Of a DNA stretch of 64,000 nucleotides, positions 41,983 to 51,410 are shown one piece after another (positions within the stretch are counted from its first letter, which is position 1; every line of letters starts with the position of its first letter). Source of the DNA: Mesorhizobium sp. AR02 (GTDB lineage: Bacteria; Pseudomonadota; Alphaproteobacteria; Rhizobiales; Rhizobiaceae); contig NZ_CP080531.1 of the NCBI RefSeq assembly GCF_024746835.1, forward strand, positions 2,232,001 through 2,296,000, in the 5' to 3' direction. Position numbers and translations under genes: made by a program. Below the pieces are notes generated by a model that was not told the origin of the DNA, did not search any database, and saw only the letters and a list, made by a program, of their open reading frames with translations.

Positions 41983-42411
41983 TCAGGGTTCCTGCCGACG
42001 CGGCCGGCGCGGCTCGATACAGTCAGGCGACGGCGTCGTCGCCGGACCGCCAGCGCAGCCCGGGCCGCCGGGTTGCATGTCCGGCCGCGGCGCGCAATCG
42101 ATTGCTGGTCCGCCGCAATCAGGCCGATCCGGCCTATCGGGTCTGTCTGGTCGATCGGGCCGATCCGGGCGATCTGGTCTGTCCGGCCAGTCGGGCCTGT
42201 CCGGACGATCCGGCCTATCAGGTCTATCGGGGCGCCATGGCCTGTCCGGCCTATCGGGACGCCAGGGCCTCCATGGCCTGTCGGGCCGGTGGTCACGGTC
42301 GCGCCAATGGTGGTCGCGCCAGGGGCGGTCGCGGTAGTCGTCCGTATCGACGCATGCGCTGAGCGTCGCGGCGCAGATGATGAGCGCCAACGCGCTTCGA
42401 AGCCTGGTCAT
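41983..42411 (-). CDS. Lipoprotein with Arg-Pro-Asp tandem repeats
   Basis: The 142-residue product has a signal peptide ending in a lipobox (CAATLSAC, Cys20). A WRDHHWRDRDHR segment follows, and then residues 42-98 consist almost entirely of RPD/RPW triplets encoded by nine-base repeats. The C-terminus is GP-rich with cysteines. It should be lipidated and exported, with a highly charged polyproline-like extension facing the periplasm or outside. The plus-strand frame over the same bases encodes GLS/GRS collagen-like triplets but has no signal or start, so I favour the minus strand. Confidence 0.65.
   Translation of the reverse strand: MTRLRSALALIICAATLSACVDTDDYRDRPWRDHHWRDRDHRPDRPWRPWRPDRPDRPWRPDRPDRPDRPDRPDWPDRPDRPDRPDRPDRPDRPDRPDCGGPAIDCAPRPDMQPGGPGCAGGPATTPSPDCIEPRRPRRQEP
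42118..42288. repeat. Nine-base tandem repeat tract inside the RPD lipoprotein gene
   Basis: About nineteen degenerate copies of a nine-base unit (GGCCTGTCC / GGCCGATCG type on the plus strand) encode the RPD triplets on the minus strand. Slippage of whole units would change repeat number without breaking the frame. Confidence 0.75.
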
Positions 42412-42523: not shown

Positions 42524-43462
42524 TCACCACAGCCAGGTGCCCTTCCCCAAGGCTGCCACCGCGTCGACGATCCGTGTGAAACTTTCACGGGCGCGGCCGA
42601 CCGTGTGCCGGGCCCTGAGATAGCCGTGCACCAAACCCGGTTCCTCGAACCAGATGGCACGCCCGCCCGCCGCGATGATGCGGTCGCGATAGGTCTCGCC
42701 GTCGGAAGACAGCGGGTCGCATTCGGCAGTGATCAGCACCGTTGGCGGCAGTTTGGCGAAATCGGTGTCGGCCAGCGGCGAGAGCGTTACATCGCCGGTC
42801 CGGTCCGCACCGCCGGTGCGGATGTGCTTGTAGAATTCGAGATCGCGCATGGTCAGCATCGGCGCTTCGGCGTGCGTCACGTAGGAGCCGCTTGAGCGGT
42901 CGCCGCCAAGGCCGGGATAGATCAGCACCTGGCCCACCGGTCGTTTCGTATGGCCGCGTGTGGCGTGAGCGACGGCAGCGCAGAGATTGCCGCCGGCGCT
43001 GTCGCCGCAGAGCAGGATGGGGTGATCACGGGTGGACGCAACCCATGCGAAGGCGCTCATCGCGTCGTCGAAGGCGGCCGGATGCAGATGCTCCGGCGCC
43101 AGCCGGTAATCGACCGAGACCACCTCGTAGCCGGTGCGGGCGCAGAGTTCGGCGCAGACGTCGTCATGGCTGTCCAGCCCGCCGAGGATGAAGCCGCCGC
43201 CATGGATATAGAGCACCGTTGCTGCCGGTTGCGGAGCGGTGCGGTAGATGCGGATCGGAATGTGGTGCGTGGGCGTTGCTATGGAAGAGGTTTCGACCGC
43301 GACACCTTCGGGATAGCCGGCAAAGAATTCCCTGCACATGCGGTCGTAGATCGCGCGCTGCTGGGTGATCGTGTAGTCGATCGTATCGGGCGGATAATAG
43401 GAGTTGGTCTTCTCGATGAAGGCCCAGGTTTCGGCGTCGATGAGGGTCTTGTAGTCGGTCAT
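42524..43462 (-). CDS. Alpha/beta hydrolase, hormone-sensitive lipase family
   Basis: The 312-residue esterase has the oxyanion motif YIHGGGFILGG near residue 85 and nucleophile GDSAGGN near residue 153. The acid is in ECDPLSSDGE and the histidine in GLVHGYLRAR. HSL-family enzymes cleave short-chain esters. It is downstream of caiD in the same direction but separated by a 118-base gap holding an inverted repeat, so membership in the carnitine operon is uncertain. It might supply the missing ester or thioester hydrolysis, which is speculation. Confidence 0.88.
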   Translation of the reverse strand: MTDYKTLIDAETWAFIEKTNSYYPPDTIDYTITQQRAIYDRMCREFFAGYPEGVAVETSSIATPTHHIPIRIYRTAPQPAATVLYIHGGGFILGGLDSHDDVCAELCARTGYEVVSVDYRLAPEHLHPAAFDDAMSAFAWVASTRDHPILLCGDSAGGNLCAAVAHATRGHTKRPVGQVLIYPGLGGDRSSGSYVTHAEAPMLTMRDLEFYKHIRTGGADRTGDVTLSPLADTDFAKLPPTVLITAECDPLSSDGETYRDRIIAAGGRAIWFEEPGLVHGYLRARHTVGRARESFTRIVDAVAALGKGTWLW

Positions 43463-43580: not shown

Positions 43581-44363
43581 TCACTTCCCCTTCCACACCG
43601 GATCGCGCTTTTCGGCAAAGGCGCGGAAACCTTCCATGTTGTCTTCCGAGCCATAGAGCGCATCGACCGTGGCCAACTGGCGGCGCGTCACCCGGTTCAT
43701 CGCGTCCTGGAAGGTCAGCGCTTCGGCCACGCGCGCCGTCTCCTTGATCGCGGCGAACACCAGCGGCGGGCCGCTGGCGAGGAGGCGGGCGATCTCCCAG
43801 ACGCGGTCTTCGAGCTTCTCCTTCGACAGCACCTCGTTGACCAGGCCCCAACGATGCGCCTCGGCGACATCCATCCAGCGGCCGGTGAGCAAAAGGTCCA
43901 TGGCGACATGGTAGGGAATGCGCTTCGGCAGCTTGATCGTCGCCGCATCGGCCAGCGTGCCGGCGCGGATTTCGGGCAGCGCGAAGGAGGAATGATCGGA
44001 GGCGTAGATGAGGTCGCAGGACAGCGCCAGCTCGAAGCCGCCGCCGACCGCCATGCCGTTGACGCAGGCGATGACCGGCTTGTTGAGGTCACGCAGTTCC
44101 TGCAGGCCGGCGAAGCCGCCGACGCCATAGTCGCCGTCGACCGCGTCGCCGCCGGCGGCCGCCTTCAGGTCCCAGCCGGCGCAGAAGAACTTGTCGCCTG
44201 ATGTCTTGACGATGGCGACGCGCAATTCCGGATCGTCACGGAACGCCTTGAAGGTCTCGCCCATCAGCCGCGAGGTCTTGAGATCGATGGCGTTGGCCTT
44301 GGGCCGATCAAGCGTGACCTCGAGGATCGAGCCTTCGCGGCGGGTCGAAATGACGTCAGACAT
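43581..44363 (-). CDS. caiD: Carnitinyl-CoA dehydratase / crotonase (CaiD-like)
   Basis: This 260-residue crotonase contains FFCAGWDLKAAAGG and DGDYGVGGFAGLQEL and ends FAEKRDPVWKGK, all strongly like CaiD of the carnitine pathway. It has the oxyanion segment VNGMAVGGGFELALS and the acidic SFALPEIRAG. CaiD hydrates crotonobetainyl-CoA to L-carnitinyl-CoA. It overlaps the acyl-CoA ligase gene by eight bases. Its presence beside carnitine dehydrogenase supports a gamma-butyrobetaine/carnitine pathway rather than general fatty-acid oxidation. Confidence 0.85.
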   Translation of the reverse strand: MSDVISTRREGSILEVTLDRPKANAIDLKTSRLMGETFKAFRDDPELRVAIVKTSGDKFFCAGWDLKAAAGGDAVDGDYGVGGFAGLQELRDLNKPVIACVNGMAVGGGFELALSCDLIYASDHSSFALPEIRAGTLADAATIKLPKRIPYHVAMDLLLTGRWMDVAEAHRWGLVNEVLSKEKLEDRVWEIARLLASGPPLVFAAIKETARVAEALTFQDAMNRVTRRQLATVDALYGSEDNMEGFRAFAEKRDPVWKGK

Positions 44364-46440
44364 TCTTGTTCTCTCCCAGCACCAGCAGCGCGTCGGCGAT
44401 CCAGGCGCCCTTGCCTTCGACGCAAACGATCAGCGGGTTGATGTCGAGTTCCTCGATCTCGCCGGCATTCTTCTGCACGAATCCGGCAATGCCCGCGATA
44501 GCGTCGATGGCGGCCGCGACGTCGGCTTTCGGCCGGCCGCGATAGCCTTCGAGCAGCGGGAACAGTTTGAGGCCGCGCAGTGCGGCCTCAATGTCGTCGC
44601 GCGTCGCCGGCAGCATCAGTGTCACGCTGTCGCGCAACAATTCGACCAGCACGCCGCCGGTGCCGAGCGTCATCACCGCGCCGAACATCGGATCCCTGGT
44701 GAAGCCGACGATCAGCTCGGCGACACCGTCGCGCACCATGCGCTCGACATAGAGCCCGGTGCCGAGTGGCAGCAGATCATGCGCCGCCGTGCTGACGGAT
44801 TCCGCATCCTTGAGGTTGAGCCTGACAGCGCCGACCTCGGACTTATGGGCGACGCCCAGCGCCTTCAGAGCGACAGGAAAGCCGAGCGCCATCGACGAGA
44901 TGACCGCCTCGACCGCATTGCCGGCGCGCTCGCCCTTCGGCACGGGAAGCCCGGCCTTGATCAGCCTAGCCTTCGCTTCAGCCTCATCAGGCGTGACATG
45001 ATCGCCGCCGGCAGCGCCGGAAGCAGACGTGTCGATCGGCTGCGCCTGCGGTTCAGCCCACGCCCAGCCGATGAAGGCCGCTGCGCCTGCGGCATCCATC
45101 GCCTCGGAAATGCCGAACAGCGGCACCATGCCGCGCGCCATCAGTTCGGCGGTGTATTCCTCGGGCAGGTTCTCCGGCAGCGAGGAGACGATCGCACCAT
45201 GCGCCTTGTTGGTCTTCAGCGCCGATTCGAAGGCGCGCAGCGTCGCCCACCAGTCGGTGACCGAGCAGCGGTCCGGGCGCGGAAAGTCGAGCACCAGCAT
45301 GTTGAGGTCGAAACCGCCCGACACCATGGCGGTGAAGGTGGCTGTCATCGCCGGCTCGTTGTTCCAGATGAAGGTGTGGTAATCCAACGGGTTGGCGACC
45401 GCGACCAGCGGCCCGAGCGTCGACTTGACATGGGCGCGGTGTGTTTCCGTCAGAACCGGGAAGTTGACCCAGCGGCCTTCGGCACTGTCGGCCATGACGG
45501 AGGCCTCGCCGCCCGAACAGCTCATCGACGACAGTCTGTAGCCGGGCAGCGGACCGGTGATGTGCAGCAGCTTCAGCGCCTCGATGAAGGCCGGGATGGA
45601 ATCGACGCGGGCGATGCCGAGCCGCCTCAGGAAAGCGCCCGAGGCCGCATCCGAGCCGGCGAGCGAGGCGGTATGCGAGACAGTCGCTTGCCGCGCCTGT
45701 TCGGAGCGGCCGACCTTCATGGCGATGATCGGTTTTTTTAGCTCGCGCGCCCTGGCGGCCAACCGTTCGAAGCCGGCTACGGAGTCAAAAGCCTCGATGT
45801 GCAGGCCGAGCGAGGTGACCCGATCGTCCTCGATCAGGCCGAGCGCCATTTCGGACAGGCCGGTCTGCGCCTGGTTGCCGGCCGTCATCAGGAAGGCGAT
45901 CGGCAGGCCGCGTTTCTGCATCGTCATGTTGATGGCGATGTTGGAGGACTGGGTGATGATGGCAACGCCCTTGCCGCCTTCCTCCAGCCTGATGCCGCCA
46001 TGCTGGTCCGGCCACAAAAGCGCACCGTCGGCATAGTTGATCAGGCCATAGCAATTCGGGCCGATGATCGGCATCTGGCCAGCGGCGGCGACCAGTTCGG
46101 CCTGCAGGCGCTCGCCATCGTCGTCATAGGCCTCGGTTTCGAGGAAGCCGGCGGCAAAGCAGACGGCTCCACCGGCGCCGCGTTCGGCCAGCGCCTTGAC
46201 GACCTCGATGGTGAGGTGCCGGTTGACGCCGACAAAGGCGGCATCCGGCGCGCCGGGCAGATCCGCGACGGACCGATAGGCCTTGCGGCCGGCAACCTCG
46301 TCCTTGGTCGGGTGCACCGGCCAGATTTCGCCGGCAAAACCCATCTTGATCGATTGCGCCACGACGGCGGCGGCCTGCACACCACCGAACACGGCGATCG
46401 ATTTCGGGCGCAGGAGACGTTCGAGTTTATGCATGGTCAT
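44356..46440 (-). CDS. Acyl-CoA ligase, ADP-forming (acetate-CoA ligase family, fused alpha and beta)
   Basis: The 694-residue fused enzyme has an N-terminal CoA-binding Rossmann domain (PKSIAVFGGVQAA), a succinyl-CoA-ligase-like domain with the phospho-histidine motif ATVSHTASLAGSDA, and a C-terminal ATP-grasp domain (GFPVALKALGVAHKSEVG). It makes acyl-CoA from an acid, ATP and CoA, releasing ADP. In this cluster it probably activates gamma-butyrobetaine, crotonobetaine or carnitine, replacing the AMP-forming CaiC and transferase CaiB of enterobacteria. The stop overlaps caiD. Confidence 0.88.
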   Translation of the reverse strand: MTMHKLERLLRPKSIAVFGGVQAAAVVAQSIKMGFAGEIWPVHPTKDEVAGRKAYRSVADLPGAPDAAFVGVNRHLTIEVVKALAERGAGGAVCFAAGFLETEAYDDDGERLQAELVAAAGQMPIIGPNCYGLINYADGALLWPDQHGGIRLEEGGKGVAIITQSSNIAINMTMQKRGLPIAFLMTAGNQAQTGLSEMALGLIEDDRVTSLGLHIEAFDSVAGFERLAARARELKKPIIAMKVGRSEQARQATVSHTASLAGSDAASGAFLRRLGIARVDSIPAFIEALKLLHITGPLPGYRLSSMSCSGGEASVMADSAEGRWVNFPVLTETHRAHVKSTLGPLVAVANPLDYHTFIWNNEPAMTATFTAMVSGGFDLNMLVLDFPRPDRCSVTDWWATLRAFESALKTNKAHGAIVSSLPENLPEEYTAELMARGMVPLFGISEAMDAAGAAAFIGWAWAEPQAQPIDTSASGAAGGDHVTPDEAEAKARLIKAGLPVPKGERAGNAVEAVISSMALGFPVALKALGVAHKSEVGAVRLNLKDAESVSTAAHDLLPLGTGLYVERMVRDGVAELIVGFTRDPMFGAVMTLGTGGVLVELLRDSVTLMLPATRDDIEAALRGLKLFPLLEGYRGRPKADVAAAIDAIAGIAGFVQKNAGEIEELDINPLIVCVEGKGAWIADALLVLGENKNV

Positions 46441-46520: not shown

Positions 46521-47684
46521 CTAAGCTCCGAACGGACGCAGCAGCGCCCGCGAAATAATATGTCGCTGAATCTCCGAAGTGCCTTCCCAGATGCGCTCGA
46601 CGCGGGCGTCGCGCCAGATCCGCTCCAGCGGCAGGTCGTCCATCAGCCCCATGCCACCATGGATCTGGATGGCTTCATCAGCCACGAAAGCCAGCATTTC
46701 GGTGGCCTTCAGCTTGGCCATGGCCATGTCCTGGTCGGTGACGGTGCCCTGATCGTACTTCCAGCCGGCTTCGAACACCATCAGGTCGGCGGCCTTCAGT
46801 TCCGTCGCCATGTCGGCGAGCTTGAACGACACACCCTGGAACTTGCCGATCTGCTGGCCGAACTGCTGGCGCTGCGCGGCATATTCGACGGCATGGCCGA
46901 GCGCCCGCTCGGCGCGGCCGAGACAGGTAGCGCCGACCTGCAGGCGGGTGGCGCCGAGCCAGGAATTGGCGACATCGAAGCCCTTATGCACCTCGCCAAG
47001 AACCTGGCTTGCCGGCAGCCGGCAATCATCGAATTCGAGGATGGCGTTGGTGTAGCCACGATGCGAGACGTTGCGATAGCCGTCGCGCACCGTAAAGCCC
47101 TTGGTGCCCTTGTCGACGAAGAAGGCGGTGATCTTCTTGCGTTTTCCGCGCGGCGAATCCTCTTCGCCGGAAGCCATGAACACGATGGCGAAATCGGCAA
47201 GATCGGCGTGGCTGATAAAATGCTTGGTGCCATTCAGCACCCAATCGTCGCCATCCTGCACCGCGGTCGCCTTCATGCCGCGCAGGTCGGAGCCGGCGCC
47301 CGGCTCGGTCATCGCGAGGCAGTCCCATTTCTCGCCACGGATGCAAGGGAAAAGATACTTTTCGCGCTGCTCCGGCGTGCCGGCAAGCAGGATGTTGGAG
47401 GGGCGCGCCACGCAGGTCCAGTGCAGCGCGTAATTGGCGCGGCCGAGTTCCTTTTCGTAGAGCAGCCAGGTCACCGTATCGAGGCCCGCGCCACCGACAT
47501 CGGCCGGCATGTTGGCGGCATAGAGCCCGGCTTCGATAGCCTTGGCCTTGATCTCTTCGATCAGCTCTCGGCGCAGCACGCCGGTGCGCTCGACCTCGCG
47601 CTCATGCGGATAAAGCTCGTTCTCGACGAAGGCGCGCGTCGTCTCGACGATGAGTTTTTGTTCCTCCGAAAGACCGAAATCCAT
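46521..47684 (-). CDS. Acyl-CoA dehydrogenase (CaiA-like role inferred)
   Basis: The 387-residue FAD enzyme has AMTEPGAGSDLRGMKA and the substrate-binding WVLNGTKHFIS. The C-terminal RIWEGTSEIQRHII contains the catalytic glutamate. General family features fit short/branched-chain acyl-CoA dehydrogenases. By position it probably oxidises gamma-butyrobetainyl-CoA to crotonobetainyl-CoA, the CaiA reaction, although the sequence alone does not fix the substrate. Its start is four bases after the stop of the carnitine dehydrogenase gene. Confidence 0.88.
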   Translation of the reverse strand: MDFGLSEEQKLIVETTRAFVENELYPHEREVERTGVLRRELIEEIKAKAIEAGLYAANMPADVGGAGLDTVTWLLYEKELGRANYALHWTCVARPSNILLAGTPEQREKYLFPCIRGEKWDCLAMTEPGAGSDLRGMKATAVQDGDDWVLNGTKHFISHADLADFAIVFMASGEEDSPRGKRKKITAFFVDKGTKGFTVRDGYRNVSHRGYTNAILEFDDCRLPASQVLGEVHKGFDVANSWLGATRLQVGATCLGRAERALGHAVEYAAQRQQFGQQIGKFQGVSFKLADMATELKAADLMVFEAGWKYDQGTVTDQDMAMAKLKATEMLAFVADEAIQIHGGMGLMDDLPLERIWRDARVERIWEGTSEIQRHIISRALLRPFGA

Positions 47685-47688
47685 GGTC

Positions 47689-48783
47689 TCAGCCCTTCTT
47701 CTTTTTCTTCGGCTTTTCCGCTTTCTTCACCGGCTTCGAGGCCTTGGCCTTCTCGGCCGCCTTGGAGGCCGCCGGCTTCTTTGCCGCCAGCTTGGCCAAC
47801 TGCTTCGTATAGTCCTTGTGCAGCGCGCCGGCGCCCCAGCCCTTGCCTTTGTTCTGCTTCGACAGCGCATCCATGATCGCGACCAGATTGTCGTCGCGGA
47901 TCTTTTCCAGCTCGCGGATCGACAGGCCATGCGCCTGGTCGTCCGACTGGGTGGCGATCAGATCGACCAGCTCGTCGTTGAATTCCGGCACGTCCATCAG
48001 CTTGGTCCACGGCCATTTCAGGCACGGCCCGAACTGCGCCATGAAGTGGCGCATGCCGGCCTCGCCGCCGGCGACGCGATAGACCTGGAACATGCCCATC
48101 TGCGCCCAGCGCAGGCCGAAGCCGTAGCGCATGATGTCGTCGAGTTCCTCGACCGTGCAGATGCCATCCTTGATCAACCACAGCGCCTCGCGCCACGCCG
48201 CTTCGAGCAGGCGGTCACCGACGAAGGCCTCGATCTCCTTGCGGATGACGACCGGCTTCATGCCGATCGAGGCGTAGATCTCCTTGGCGACCTCGATCGC
48301 CTCGGGAAAGGTCTGTTCGCCGCCGACGATTTCGACCAGCGGCAGGAGATAGACCGGGTTGAACGGATGGCCGACGACCAGCCGCTCGGGGTGCTTCTTC
48401 ATCGCCACCTGCATGTCGGTCGGTTTGATACCGGAGGTGGAGGAGCCGACAATGGCGTTGGCCGGCGCATTAGCGTCGATCTCGGCCAGCACCTTGTGCT
48501 TGAGGTCGAGCCGTTCCGGCACGCTTTCCTGGATGAAGTCGGCATCCGCAACCGCCTCGGCAATGGTCTTGGCGAAGGTCAGCTTGCCCTCTTTCGGCAA
48601 GCCGCCGGGCACCATCTGCTTGTAGGCGCGGCGCGCGCCCTTCATCACTTCCGAGACCTTGCGCGAGGCCTCGGGGTCGGGGTCGAAGATCGACACGTCG
48701 ATACCGTTGAGCAGCAGGCGCGCCACCCAGCCGGCGCCGATGACACCGCCGCCGATGGCGGCAGCCTTGTTGATGATGCTCAT
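47689..48783 (-). CDS. L-carnitine dehydrogenase (3-hydroxyacyl-CoA dehydrogenase fold)
   Basis: The 364-residue NAD enzyme begins INKAAAIGGGVIGAGWVARLLLNG. The first part is the Rossmann domain; HPFNPVYLLPLVEIVGG and the GLRWAQMGMFQVYRVAGGE and MRHFMAQFGP region match carnitine 3-dehydrogenases rather than fatty-acid enzymes. It oxidises L-carnitine to 3-dehydrocarnitine. Residues 325-364 form an extra alanine/lysine/proline tail ending in KKKKKG; no thioesterase domain, seen in some fused homologues, is present. It overlaps the HD gene by four bases. Confidence 0.87.
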   Translation of the reverse strand: MSIINKAAAIGGGVIGAGWVARLLLNGIDVSIFDPDPEASRKVSEVMKGARRAYKQMVPGGLPKEGKLTFAKTIAEAVADADFIQESVPERLDLKHKVLAEIDANAPANAIVGSSTSGIKPTDMQVAMKKHPERLVVGHPFNPVYLLPLVEIVGGEQTFPEAIEVAKEIYASIGMKPVVIRKEIEAFVGDRLLEAAWREALWLIKDGICTVEELDDIMRYGFGLRWAQMGMFQVYRVAGGEAGMRHFMAQFGPCLKWPWTKLMDVPEFNDELVDLIATQSDDQAHGLSIRELEKIRDDNLVAIMDALSKQNKGKGWGAGALHKDYTKQLAKLAAKKPAASKAAEKAKASKPVKKAEKPKKKKKG

Positions 48784-49412
48784 GCTGAGGCTCCGGTTCT
48801 TGTCTTGGCTATAGTGGGATCTAGGAGGGGCACGCGCTCGCCGGCGCGGATCACGGATGCGTCGTAGGCCTTGCGGGCGAAGACTTCGAGCACGAAGGGC
48901 CGGAAGAAGTCGATCGGCAGCGTCTCATAGTCGGGATCGAAGCTCGATTGGTCCCAGCGTTCGCAAAACTGGTCGCAGTCATCGAAATAGGCGTGGCCGG
49001 CGAAGCGGCTGCGGGCATGGCGATTGCCGCTGAGATGGTGGGCATAATAGAGGCGCTGGAAGTCGCCGTGCTTCTCCACCACCCAGGTGCATTGCTCGCG
49101 CACGAAGGGCTTCAGGATCGACGCGGCATATTCGTCGTGGTTGTAGGGCGCATAGATGTCGCCGATGTCGTGCAGCAGCGCGCAGGCGATCCAGTCGGTA
49201 TCGGCGCCGTCACGCCAGGCGCGCGTCGCCGCCTGCAGCGAATGGCCGAGCCGGGTGATCTTGTAGCCCGACAGGCCTTCATCGAGCTGCACCAGCGCGT
49301 CGAGCAGACGATCGCCGGTCTTGGCGGCATAGTCGATTTCATGGGCGGTCAGGAACTCGTAATCGTCCTTGTCGCCATCCTTCATCGCGGTGAATTTGAC
49401 GGTATCAGCCAT
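48780..49412 (-). CDS. HD-domain protein, possible PhnZ/MIOX-like di-iron oxygenase
   Basis: The 210-residue HD protein has GHSLQAATRA (His57), ACALLHDIGD (His81-Asp82), NHDEYAASIL (His92), VVEKHGDFQ (His115) and an Asp-rich DDCDQFCERWDQSSFDPDY (Asp147, Asp154). The order H...HD...H...H...D and the SLQ motif fit mixed-valence di-iron oxygenases (PhnZ, MIOX), which need more histidines than phosphohydrolases. It lies between the BKACE gene (15 bases) and carnitine dehydrogenase (4-base overlap), so a role on a carnitine-pathway intermediate is likely. The ATG was chosen because GGGAG lies seven bases before it. Confidence 0.72.
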   Translation of the reverse strand: MADTVKFTAMKDGDKDDYEFLTAHEIDYAAKTGDRLLDALVQLDEGLSGYKITRLGHSLQAATRAWRDGADTDWIACALLHDIGDIYAPYNHDEYAASILKPFVREQCTWVVEKHGDFQRLYYAHHLSGNRHARSRFAGHAYFDDCDQFCERWDQSSFDPDYETLPIDFFRPFVLEVFARKAYDASVIRAGERVPLLDPTIAKTRTGASA

Positions 49413-49427
49413 CACCAAACTCCCGCC

Positions 49428-50351
49428 TTACGCCGCGGCTGCGATCGGTGCCCGCTTGGTCAGGTTCAGCTTCTTGCGCACTTCCTCCGGCCCCAAAATC
49501 CTGGCGCCGAGATTGGTGACGATGCTGGCGGCACGCTCGACCAGTTGCGCGTTGGTGGCGAGCACGCCCTTGTCGAGCCACAGATTGTCTTCCAGCCCGA
49601 CACGGACATTGCCGCCGGCCAGCACCGCGGCTGCGGCATAAGCCATCTGGTTGCGGCCGATGGCGAAGGCCGACCAGTTCCAGGTCGACGGCACGTTGTT
49701 GACCATGGCCATGAAGGTGTTAAGGTCGTCAGGCGCGCCCCACGGCACGCCCATGCAGAGCTGCACCAGCGCGTCGGGGTTCAGCACCTTTTCCTCGACC
49801 AGCTGCTTGGCGAACCAGAGATGGCCGGTGTCGAAGGCCTCGATCTCCGGTTTGACGCCGAGTGCCGTCATCATGCCGCCCATGGCGCGCAGCATGCCTG
49901 GCGTGTTGGTCATGACATAATCGGCCTCGGCGAAGTTCATGGTGCCGCAGTCGAGCGTGCAGATTTCGGGCAGGCACTGGCGCACATGTTCCATACGGTT
50001 GGTGGCGCCGCCCATGTCGGTGCCCTTTTCGTTGAGCGGCAGCGGCGCTTCCGGCGAGCCGAACACCATGTCGCCGCCCATGCCGGCGGTGAGGTTCAGG
50101 ATCACGTCGACTTCTGCCGCGCGGATGCGCTCGGTCACTTCGCGGTAGAGATGCACGTCGCGCCTGGGCTTGCCAGTTTCGGGGTCGCGCACATGGCAGT
50201 GGACGATCGCGGCACCGGCCTTGGCCGCATCGATGGCCGAATCGGCGATCTGCTTGGGCGAACGCGGCACATGCGGGCTGCGATCCTGCGAGCCGCCAGA
50301 TCCGGTCACGGCACAGGTAATGAAAACCTCACGGTTCATCGCAAGCGGCAT
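49428..50351 (-). CDS. Beta-keto acid cleavage enzyme (BKACE, DUF849), dehydrocarnitine-acetyl-CoA type
   Basis: The 307-residue TIM barrel starts MPLAMNREVFITCAVTGSGG. Zinc ligands His51 and His53 are in AIVHCHVRDPETG, and NLTAGMGGDMVFG and GLEDNLWLDKGVLA are the family segments. BKACE enzymes condense a beta-keto acid with acetyl-CoA; beside carnitine dehydrogenase the substrate should be dehydrocarnitine, giving betainyl-CoA and acetoacetate. I chose the ATG after GGAGGAG; the same frame stays open upstream through the divergent regulator. Confidence 0.9.
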   Translation of the reverse strand: MPLAMNREVFITCAVTGSGGSQDRSPHVPRSPKQIADSAIDAAKAGAAIVHCHVRDPETGKPRRDVHLYREVTERIRAAEVDVILNLTAGMGGDMVFGSPEAPLPLNEKGTDMGGATNRMEHVRQCLPEICTLDCGTMNFAEADYVMTNTPGMLRAMGGMMTALGVKPEIEAFDTGHLWFAKQLVEEKVLNPDALVQLCMGVPWGAPDDLNTFMAMVNNVPSTWNWSAFAIGRNQMAYAAAAVLAGGNVRVGLEDNLWLDKGVLATNAQLVERAASIVTNLGARILGPEEVRKKLNLTKRAPIAAAA

Positions 50352-50429: not shown

Positions 50430-51410
50430 ATGATAAAAAACGAAAAGATGACAATCTTTCGCTCGGAGCAGTCGCCGCTCAAGGTGACGCTCCTGGTGTT
50501 TTCGGGGGCATCCATTATGTGCGTGGCATGCGCCGTCGATCCGCTGCGCGCTGCCAACCGCATCGCCGGCGAAACCCTGTTCGACTTCAAACTGGTTTCG
50601 GTGACCGGAGAGGCGCCGGTCACGACATGCGGCCTGCCCGTGGCGGTCAGCGGCCGGTTCGATGCGACGGAACCGACCGATGTCCTGGTCGTGGTCGCGG
50701 GCTTCGGCACGCAGAACTATGCCACGTCTGCCTTGCTTGCCGGCCTGCGCCGGGCGGCGCGGTCGGCCCGCGCCTGCGGCGGCGTCGAGGCCGGCACATG
50801 GCTGGTGGCGCGCGCCGGCTTGCTGGAAGGACGCAGCGCCACCACCCATTGGGAAGACATGGAGGACTTTTCGTCCGCCTTTCCGGGCGTCGACGTGCGC
50901 CCCGATCGGTACATCATCGATGGACCGGTCTTCACCACGGGCGGCGCGTCGCCGACCCTGGACCTGATGCTGCACCTGATCCGCACCCGGCTCGGCATGG
51001 CCGTGGCGCTGGATGTGGCAAGCGCGTTCATCTACGACCAGGCGCGCGTGGCGACCGATGCGCAGCCGCTGGTCTCGCTTGGCCGGCTCGATGGCTACGA
51101 CCCACGCCTGGCGCAGGCCATCCGGCTGATGGAGGCGCATGTCGACCAGCCGCTGACCATAGAAGCCATCGCAAAACGTGCCGGGGTGACGGCGCGAACC
51201 CTGGAAAGCATCTTTCGCAAGTCGATCGGCGAGACGCCGGGCGCCTATTATCTCAGGCTGCGCCTGGGTGCGGCGCGACGGCTGGTGGTCGACACGCGTG
51301 TGGCCATGGCGGATATTGCCGGGCGGACAGGGTTCTCGTCCGCCGCGGCATTTTCCAGAGCGTTTTCAAGAGCTTTTGGCGAAGCCCCAGTCAGGCTGCG
51401 GCGCGGTTGA
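50430..51410 (+). CDS. GlxA-family AraC-type regulator (CdhR-like)
   Basis: The 326-residue regulator has an N-terminal DJ-1/PfpI-like domain (LLVFSGASIMCVACAVDPLRAANR, residues about 21-190) and a C-terminal AraC helix-turn-helix pair (IEAIAKRAGVTARTLESIFRKSIGETPGAYY). This is the architecture of CdhR and GbdR, the carnitine and betaine regulators of Pseudomonas. It is divergent from the BKACE gene across 78 bases and should control the cluster in response to carnitine. ATG at 50448 is an alternative start. Twenty bases overlap the convergent HAD gene. Confidence 0.87.
   Translation: MIKNEKMTIFRSEQSPLKVTLLVFSGASIMCVACAVDPLRAANRIAGETLFDFKLVSVTGEAPVTTCGLPVAVSGRFDATEPTDVLVVVAGFGTQNYATSALLAGLRRAARSARACGGVEAGTWLVARAGLLEGRSATTHWEDMEDFSSAFPGVDVRPDRYIIDGPVFTTGGASPTLDLMLHLIRTRLGMAVALDVASAFIYDQARVATDAQPLVSLGRLDGYDPRLAQAIRLMEAHVDQPLTIEAIAKRAGVTARTLESIFRKSIGETPGAYYLRLRLGAARRLVVDTRVAMADIAGRTGFSSAAAFSRAFSRAFGEAPVRLRRG

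Follow-up and report, generated by a model that had tools for sequence, protein, structure and literature searches.

To our knowledge, only a few HD oxygenases have been characterised. Closest to the gene considered here are PhnZ (2-amino-1-hydroxyethylphosphonate oxygenase) and TmpB ((R)-1-hydroxy-2-trimethylaminoethylphosphonate oxygenase), followed less closely by MIOX (myo-inositol oxygenase). The two phosphonate enzymes are known from hydroxylase-HD oxygenase layouts, PhnY-PhnZ and TmpA-TmpB (excerpts of PMC10574752), and a YxxE loop has been described for both of them, but not for MIOX (excerpts of PMC8177086). The gene studied here lies in a 64,000-nt stretch of Mesorhizobium sp. AR02 (NZ_CP080531.1, 2,232,001 to 2,296,000; the window, in whose numbering all feature positions are given), where it codes for a 210-residue HD-domain protein amid genes of carnitine breakdown. 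We read this protein, with a probability of about 0.52, as an HD diiron oxygenase of an undescribed subfamily that would act on a hydroxylated, probably quaternary-amine substrate. In the open PubMed Central literature, we found no HD protein in carnitine clusters and no account of the subfamily, which is apparently large and undescribed.

The kinship to HD diiron oxygenases is supported by ligand alignment, profiles and predicted fold. All 173 distinct relatives (from 219 retained matches of about 232; sequences with a stop, those below 150 amino acids and second pieces were excluded) have the ligand set H..HD..H..H..D, which aligns with that of TmpB. Invariant among them are R54, H57, H81, D82, N91, H92, W110, H115, F118, Q119, D154 and F158; position 60 is Q in 170, and D occupies position 85 in 171 of them, E in the other 2. 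A preliminary description, made from the sequence of the window, had the open reading frame, H57, H81-D82, H92, H115 and the H57-S-L-Q60 motif in the right places, and left the last ligand open between two Asp residues. Position 147 is D in just 48 of the 173 relatives, whereas D154 is present in every one and corresponds to the final TmpB ligand in the alignment; D154 is therefore the sixth ligand, and D147 can be discarded. The protein matches the profiles Phn-HD (E-value 3e-8, 33.3 bits against a cut-off of 214.6), PhnZ1 (1e-6, 28.1 against 300) and TmpB (7e-5, 22.6 against 300), in all cases far under the curated NCBIfam cut-offs, and Pfam HD at 6e-5, slightly above the cut-off. The match to Pfam MIOX (PF05153; 1e-3, 18.9 bits against a cut-off of 25) covers residues 34-94 only; its profile alignment spans residues 37-96 only, and the H-D-E-Y match was read off separately and then counted. 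Fold (in a predicted model) and profile are closer to HD diiron oxygenases than to HD hydrolases by a wide margin. The kinship to mixed-valence HD oxygenases proposed in the preliminary description thus agrees with profile, fold and ligand alignment, and the structural superposition that it had suggested as a check bears this out at the level of fold and alignment only, on a predicted model.

In the genus of the window, the HD gene belongs to the carnitine operon. An ortholog with at least 89% identity is present in 31 of the 37 genus genomes searched (its own included; one ortholog is split in two pieces). The gene for BKACE (beta-keto acid cleavage enzyme) lies directly upstream in all 31 genus loci (30 from this genome search and one from a separate search), and the carnitine dehydrogenase gene directly downstream in 30, the sequence of the remaining locus ending there. 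The same gene order recurs in thirteen more named loci (L142-L154). At the window locus, the HD gene starts 15 bp after the BKACE stop, and its own stop shares 4 bp (ATGA) with the start of the dehydrogenase gene, an overlap that recurs in 35 of 59 loci with both genes (some loci counted repeatedly). Against ten relatives, two with identical protein, the ratio of nonsynonymous to synonymous substitution rates (dN/dS) of the HD gene is 0.10-0.21, and the gene is therefore under purifying selection. The gene set as a whole (Table 1) fits the L-carnitine pathway of Sinorhizobium meliloti, reportedly described by Bazire in 2019. Genes in the loci were called by codon usage, and some were merged or trimmed by the caller.

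Hydroxylase genes recur beside the HD gene in other branches of the subfamily. In a dereplicated set of 107 loci that have 900 bp or more upstream, the gene immediately upstream on the same strand codes for a TmpA-like TauD protein in 6 and for a PhyH protein in 14. One further TauD/PhyH gene lies within 3 kb of the HD gene and none beyond, only 65 of the 107 loci holding 3 kb on both sides. On a Pseudomonas aeruginosa plasmid (L073), the hydroxylase-partnered HD gene is accompanied by choline dehydrogenase and aldehyde dehydrogenase genes; more hydroxylase-partnered loci are L093, L109, L102, L192 and L195. Rieske-type genes are found next to the HD gene of L193 and next to the paralogue in the window's own genome.

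Table 1. The HD gene, selected residues of its product and the genes around it, in window coordinates
Feature	Position	Strand	Remark
HD-domain protein, oxygenase-like, 210 amino acids, ATG start	48780..49412	(-)	subject of study
H57, first metal ligand, in H-S-L-Q60 motif	49242..49244	(-)	173/173 distinct relatives; aligned to TmpB
H81-D82, HD motif ligands	49167..49172	(-)	173/173 relatives; aligned to TmpB
H92, ligand	49137..49139	(-)	173/173 relatives; aligned to TmpB
H115, ligand	49068..49070	(-)	173/173 relatives; aligned to TmpB
D154, last ligand	48951..48953	(-)	173/173 relatives; aligned to last TmpB Asp
R54, invariant, three before H57	49251..49253	(-)	M, Q or I in 19 TmpB-type; Q in two MIOX
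D85, after HDIG	49158..49160	(-)	H in 17/19 TmpB-type; K in two MIOX
Q119, four after H115	49056..49058	(-)	K in 19/19 TmpB-type
F158, four after D154	48939..48941	(-)	K in 19/19 TmpB-type and 2/2 MIOX
BKACE, upstream neighbour	49428..50351	(-)	Pfam PF05853, 9.6e-98
Carnitine 3-dehydrogenase without C-terminal thioesterase part	47689..48783	(-)	NF005716, 2.4e-179, over cut-off
Acyl-CoA dehydrogenase	46521..47684	(-)	family profile match
ATP-grasp acyl-CoA ligase	44356..46440	(-)	family profile match
Enoyl-CoA hydratase family protein; top model crotonobetainyl-CoA hydratase (under cut-off)	43581..44363	(-)	NF002936, 3e-95
Alpha/beta hydrolase	42524..43462	(-)	recognised in 12/13 related named loci L142-L154
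DJ-1/AraC-type regulator, divergent	50430..51410	(+)	

From the ligand set and this setting, we infer metal, use of O2, substrate and products as follows. Two irons would be held by the six protein ligands; the oxygen of a substrate CH-OH would sit on one iron and O2 on the other, and the C-H would be attacked and the neighbouring bond cleaved, according to R-CH(OH)-X + O2 -> R-COOH + X-OH. Elsewhere in the subfamily, the adjacent TmpA-like, PhyH or Rieske-type hydroxylase could supply the hydroxyl, whereas in the window operon the dehydrogenase and hydratase steps of the operon itself would generate it, so that the substrate would most likely be carnitine, a close derivative or a side product. 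Carnitine or a betaine would be a plausible substrate, and the HD step would form an optional branch alongside the dehydrogenase/BKACE route. One particular version of the oxygenase reading, the one-step conversion of L-carnitine and O2 to glycine betaine and glycolate, by-passing dehydrogenase, BKACE and thioesterase, seems to us quite unlikely. Its atoms balance, and L-carnitine shares the (R) arrangement of the TmpB substrate, with CH2-COO- replacing the phosphonate; a chemical objection is that the chelate would be six-membered, not five-membered.

The carnitine-cluster members form a 9-row clade (93 in the Shimodaira-Hasegawa-like approximate likelihood ratio test, SH-aLRT) inside a 45-row clade (98, starred) that also contains PhyH-partnered roseobacter proteins. 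L052/L111, likewise from a BKACE/dehydrogenase cluster, stands apart from it beside SAR11, so that the HD gene probably became associated with carnitine genes twice; the tree is a quick one, with SH-aLRT support only, on 110 of the 173 sequences. In L085, L088, L156, L164, L168, L184 and other Rhodobacteraceae loci, a PhyH dioxygenase gene directly precedes the HD gene, often with a gene for a protein of about 1,040 amino acids nearby, which is valyl-tRNA synthetase-like in L184, the sole one tested. In the SAR11-type loci (L095, L098, L196-L200, L204, L206, L212, L213, L218), the HD gene precedes a gene for a glutamate-cysteine ligase-like protein; in L196, the sole one of them tested, it lies between purF and the glutamate-cysteine ligase-like and glutathione synthetase genes, with no obvious link to a quaternary amine. 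AlkZ-like, urate oxidase and LuxR-type regulator genes make up other contexts. L193 (Pelagibius) combines the HD gene with genes for a Rieske oxygenase alpha subunit, an AraC/DJ-1 regulator, an acyl-CoA dehydrogenase, a ligase and a hydratase-like protein, and is possibly another carnitine-type cluster. The paralogue in the window's genome (L082, G000:C2:4407208-4407819), 69% identical, stands behind amidohydrolase and small Rieske protein genes. Lipocalin-like genes adjoin BKACE, HD or carnitine dehydrogenase genes in L161, L180 and L261. Within the window, a small open reading frame at 41983-42411(-) consists mostly of P-D-R-P repeats after a lipoprotein-like start, matches no Pfam family at E 1e-4 and may be non-genic.

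Several observations weigh against an oxygenase with a carnitine-like substrate. Five S. meliloti enzymes, according to the same work of Bazire, are said to suffice for the route from gamma-butyrobetaine to betaine. The HD gene is optional in rhizobial carnitine clusters: in the 30 best-scoring rhizobial loci for the dehydrogenase (no random draw; three are from the window's genus), it stands between BKACE and dehydrogenase in 8, BKACE directly precedes the dehydrogenase in 21, and one has no recognised BKACE. In the preliminary description the gene was locked between these two neighbours, which is true of the genus but not of the family: the dehydrogenase occurs at 55% identity or more in 96 of 151 Rhizobiaceae genomes (counted from the match list), with an HD gene at most 1 kb away in 11 of the 96 (judged by eye). 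No TauD/PhyH dioxygenase gene is found immediately upstream in 87 of the 107 loci, and the dioxygenase count shows tight placement but no unbiased rate, because queries were taken from such loci. The purF/glutathione contexts of SAR11 and those with urate oxidase or valyl-tRNA synthetase show no quaternary amine, and the invariant residues do not point to carnitine, since they are common to members from non-carnitine contexts. As far as aligned residues can tell, the first metal shell is retained and the pocket around it rebuilt relative to TmpB. The comparison set consists of 19 of 20 TmpB-type loci, L277 being excluded for a stop. After HDxG, these have H in 17, L in one and Y in one; the Lys four after the last Asp is kept even in the one with Glu for Asp; and YxxE is present in 17 of 19, whereas none of the 173 relatives has Y47 and E50 (the window protein has L-S-G-Y at 47-50). 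With the YxxE loop, the His after HDxG and both Lys residues all replaced, the substrate analogy with TmpB that the preliminary description had drawn is weak. Finally, 173 of 173 relatives have R three positions ahead of the first His, against M in 11, Q in 6 and I in 2 of the TmpB-type proteins and Q in both MIOX, and such an invariant Arg is a described trait of HD phosphohydrolases (excerpts of PMC8177086). Reading its absence as a mark of oxygenases is our own, not a stated rule, and the family with its R54 does carry it.

This Arg leads to the alternative of a dinuclear HD phosphohydrolase, a phosphatase or phosphodiesterase removing phosphate from an operon-linked metabolite or signal, which we regard as unlikely. 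The preliminary description had taken the order H-HD-H-H-D as distinctive of oxygenases as opposed to phosphohydrolases. This was too strong: according to excerpts of PMC8177086, two additional His lie between HD and D in the dinuclear phosphatase YqeK, and H..HD..H..HH..D is the pattern of HD-GYP proteins and other phosphodiesterases, so that the order alone cannot separate the two classes. In addition, some relatives bear the database name 'predicted HD phosphohydrolase' (others 'peptidase'), labels that our searches do not bear out. What speaks for an oxygenase instead is the wide margin of fold (in the predicted model) and profile, the recurrence of hydroxylase neighbours, and a pocket in which the acidic D85 and the loss of positive residues would be ill-suited to a phosphate group.

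Rather unlikely, too, is an HD oxygenase of the subfamily with a substrate unrelated to carnitine, whose place in the operon would stem from co-regulation or from a product in common, for example glycine betaine. The many unrelated contexts and the optional presence in carnitine clusters would fit, and so would a gene row in another genome (L295, G222:C52), where genes for a TmpA-like protein, TmpB (over cut-off), a TauD-type protein, BKACE and a long carnitine dehydrogenase follow each other on one strand. This row implies that a different HD oxygenase subfamily can also adjoin a carnitine cluster. Glycine betaine is a product of carnitine breakdown. It is also the product of TmpB (excerpts of PMC10574752), and this common product may be the reason for the arrangement. 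On the other hand, the HD gene was apparently recruited into BKACE/dehydrogenase clusters twice, separately, and its tight coupling with the dehydrogenase gene recurs.

An improbable variant is that the HD protein clears a side product, for example D-carnitine or trimethylaminoacetone from dehydrocarnitine decarboxylation. The gene is optional and stands beside enzymes that make and use dehydrocarnitine, and trimethylaminoacetone has been seen in Citrobacter carnitine metabolism (excerpts of PMC12482172). However, this compound is a plain ketone, by our own reasoning without the CH-OH that the enzyme class attacks.

It is very improbable that the HD protein stands in for the betainyl-CoA thioesterase, which elsewhere is a fused part of the dehydrogenase. 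The idea comes from the window dehydrogenase, which matches positions 1-346 of the 495-position model, ends in a tail rich in Lys and Ala and lacks the C-terminal part, and from the operon genes scanned, among which no thioesterase-family gene, betainyl-CoA thioesterase included, was identified. However, HD genes coexist with dehydrogenases of 477-502 amino acids in L157 (Hoeflea) and in L155, L160, L161 and L180 (Rhodobacteraceae-type), and the match of the L157 enzyme to the fused model runs from position 1 to position 486 of 495. L111 has a 4HBT_2 thioesterase gene between HD and BKACE, on the opposite strand, and four 4HBT_2 genes are present elsewhere in the window's genome. Conversely, 21 of the 30 rhizobial loci have a short dehydrogenase with no HD gene between it and BKACE; the dehydrogenases of all 30 are short (314-392 amino acids), so that a missing fused thioesterase does not predict the HD gene. 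A second phosphonate oxygenase with TmpB or PhnZ function is hardly credible, even with these two as closest characterised relatives, given the replaced pocket features, scores below every model cut-off, and a separate pair elsewhere in the genome (L294, G000:C2:5826152-5827824), in which TmpA (548 bits) directly precedes TmpB (329.5 bits), both over cut-off.

The family thus retains the metal ligands of HD oxygenases with much of the substrate pocket changed, in thousands of clusters from rhizobia to SAR11 (7,225 protein clusters in one search, at least 7,999 in another that took in 8,000 candidates at most). If its members are oxygenases, the fold's known chemistry would cover a small fraction of the whole, and there would be an unknown oxygen-dependent branch in carnitine breakdown; if carnitine cleavage in particular is true, the subfamily would amount to a large group of HD oxygenases that cleave C-C bonds, some of them working behind diverse hydroxylases. 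Weak matches to the Phn-HD and TmpB models were obtained for 40 of 40 tested members, so that under permissive thresholds they could be mistaken for phosphonate genes. Published ocean phnZ abundances are widely discordant (excerpts of PMC10574752), and the subfamily may be linked to this discordance.

Compared with TmpB, the window protein has no YxxE, D85 for His, Q119 and F158 for Lys and R54 for M, Q or I; the L-Q-G-G stretch of 17/19 TmpB-type proteins is absent, spacings are shorter, and no TmpA-like or adjacent Fe/2-oxoglutarate hydroxylase gene occurs among the flanking and operon genes scanned. PhnZ likewise differs by its YxxE, by Q where the window protein has R54 and by H after HDLG where it has D85, and its partner dioxygenase is absent at the window locus. 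MIOX is more distant: the window protein has 210 residues against the 249 positions of the model, lacks the long insert between HD and the next His, and has replaced both the K after HDxG and the K four after the last Asp. For the operon, the closest described system is that of S. meliloti, which has a bifunctional carnitine dehydrogenase (as quoted in excerpts of PMC12482172). The two clusters share genes for BKACE, carnitine dehydrogenase, acyl-CoA dehydrogenase, CoA ligase and hydratase; in the window, the dehydrogenase is without the fused thioesterase, and the HD gene is placed between it and BKACE.
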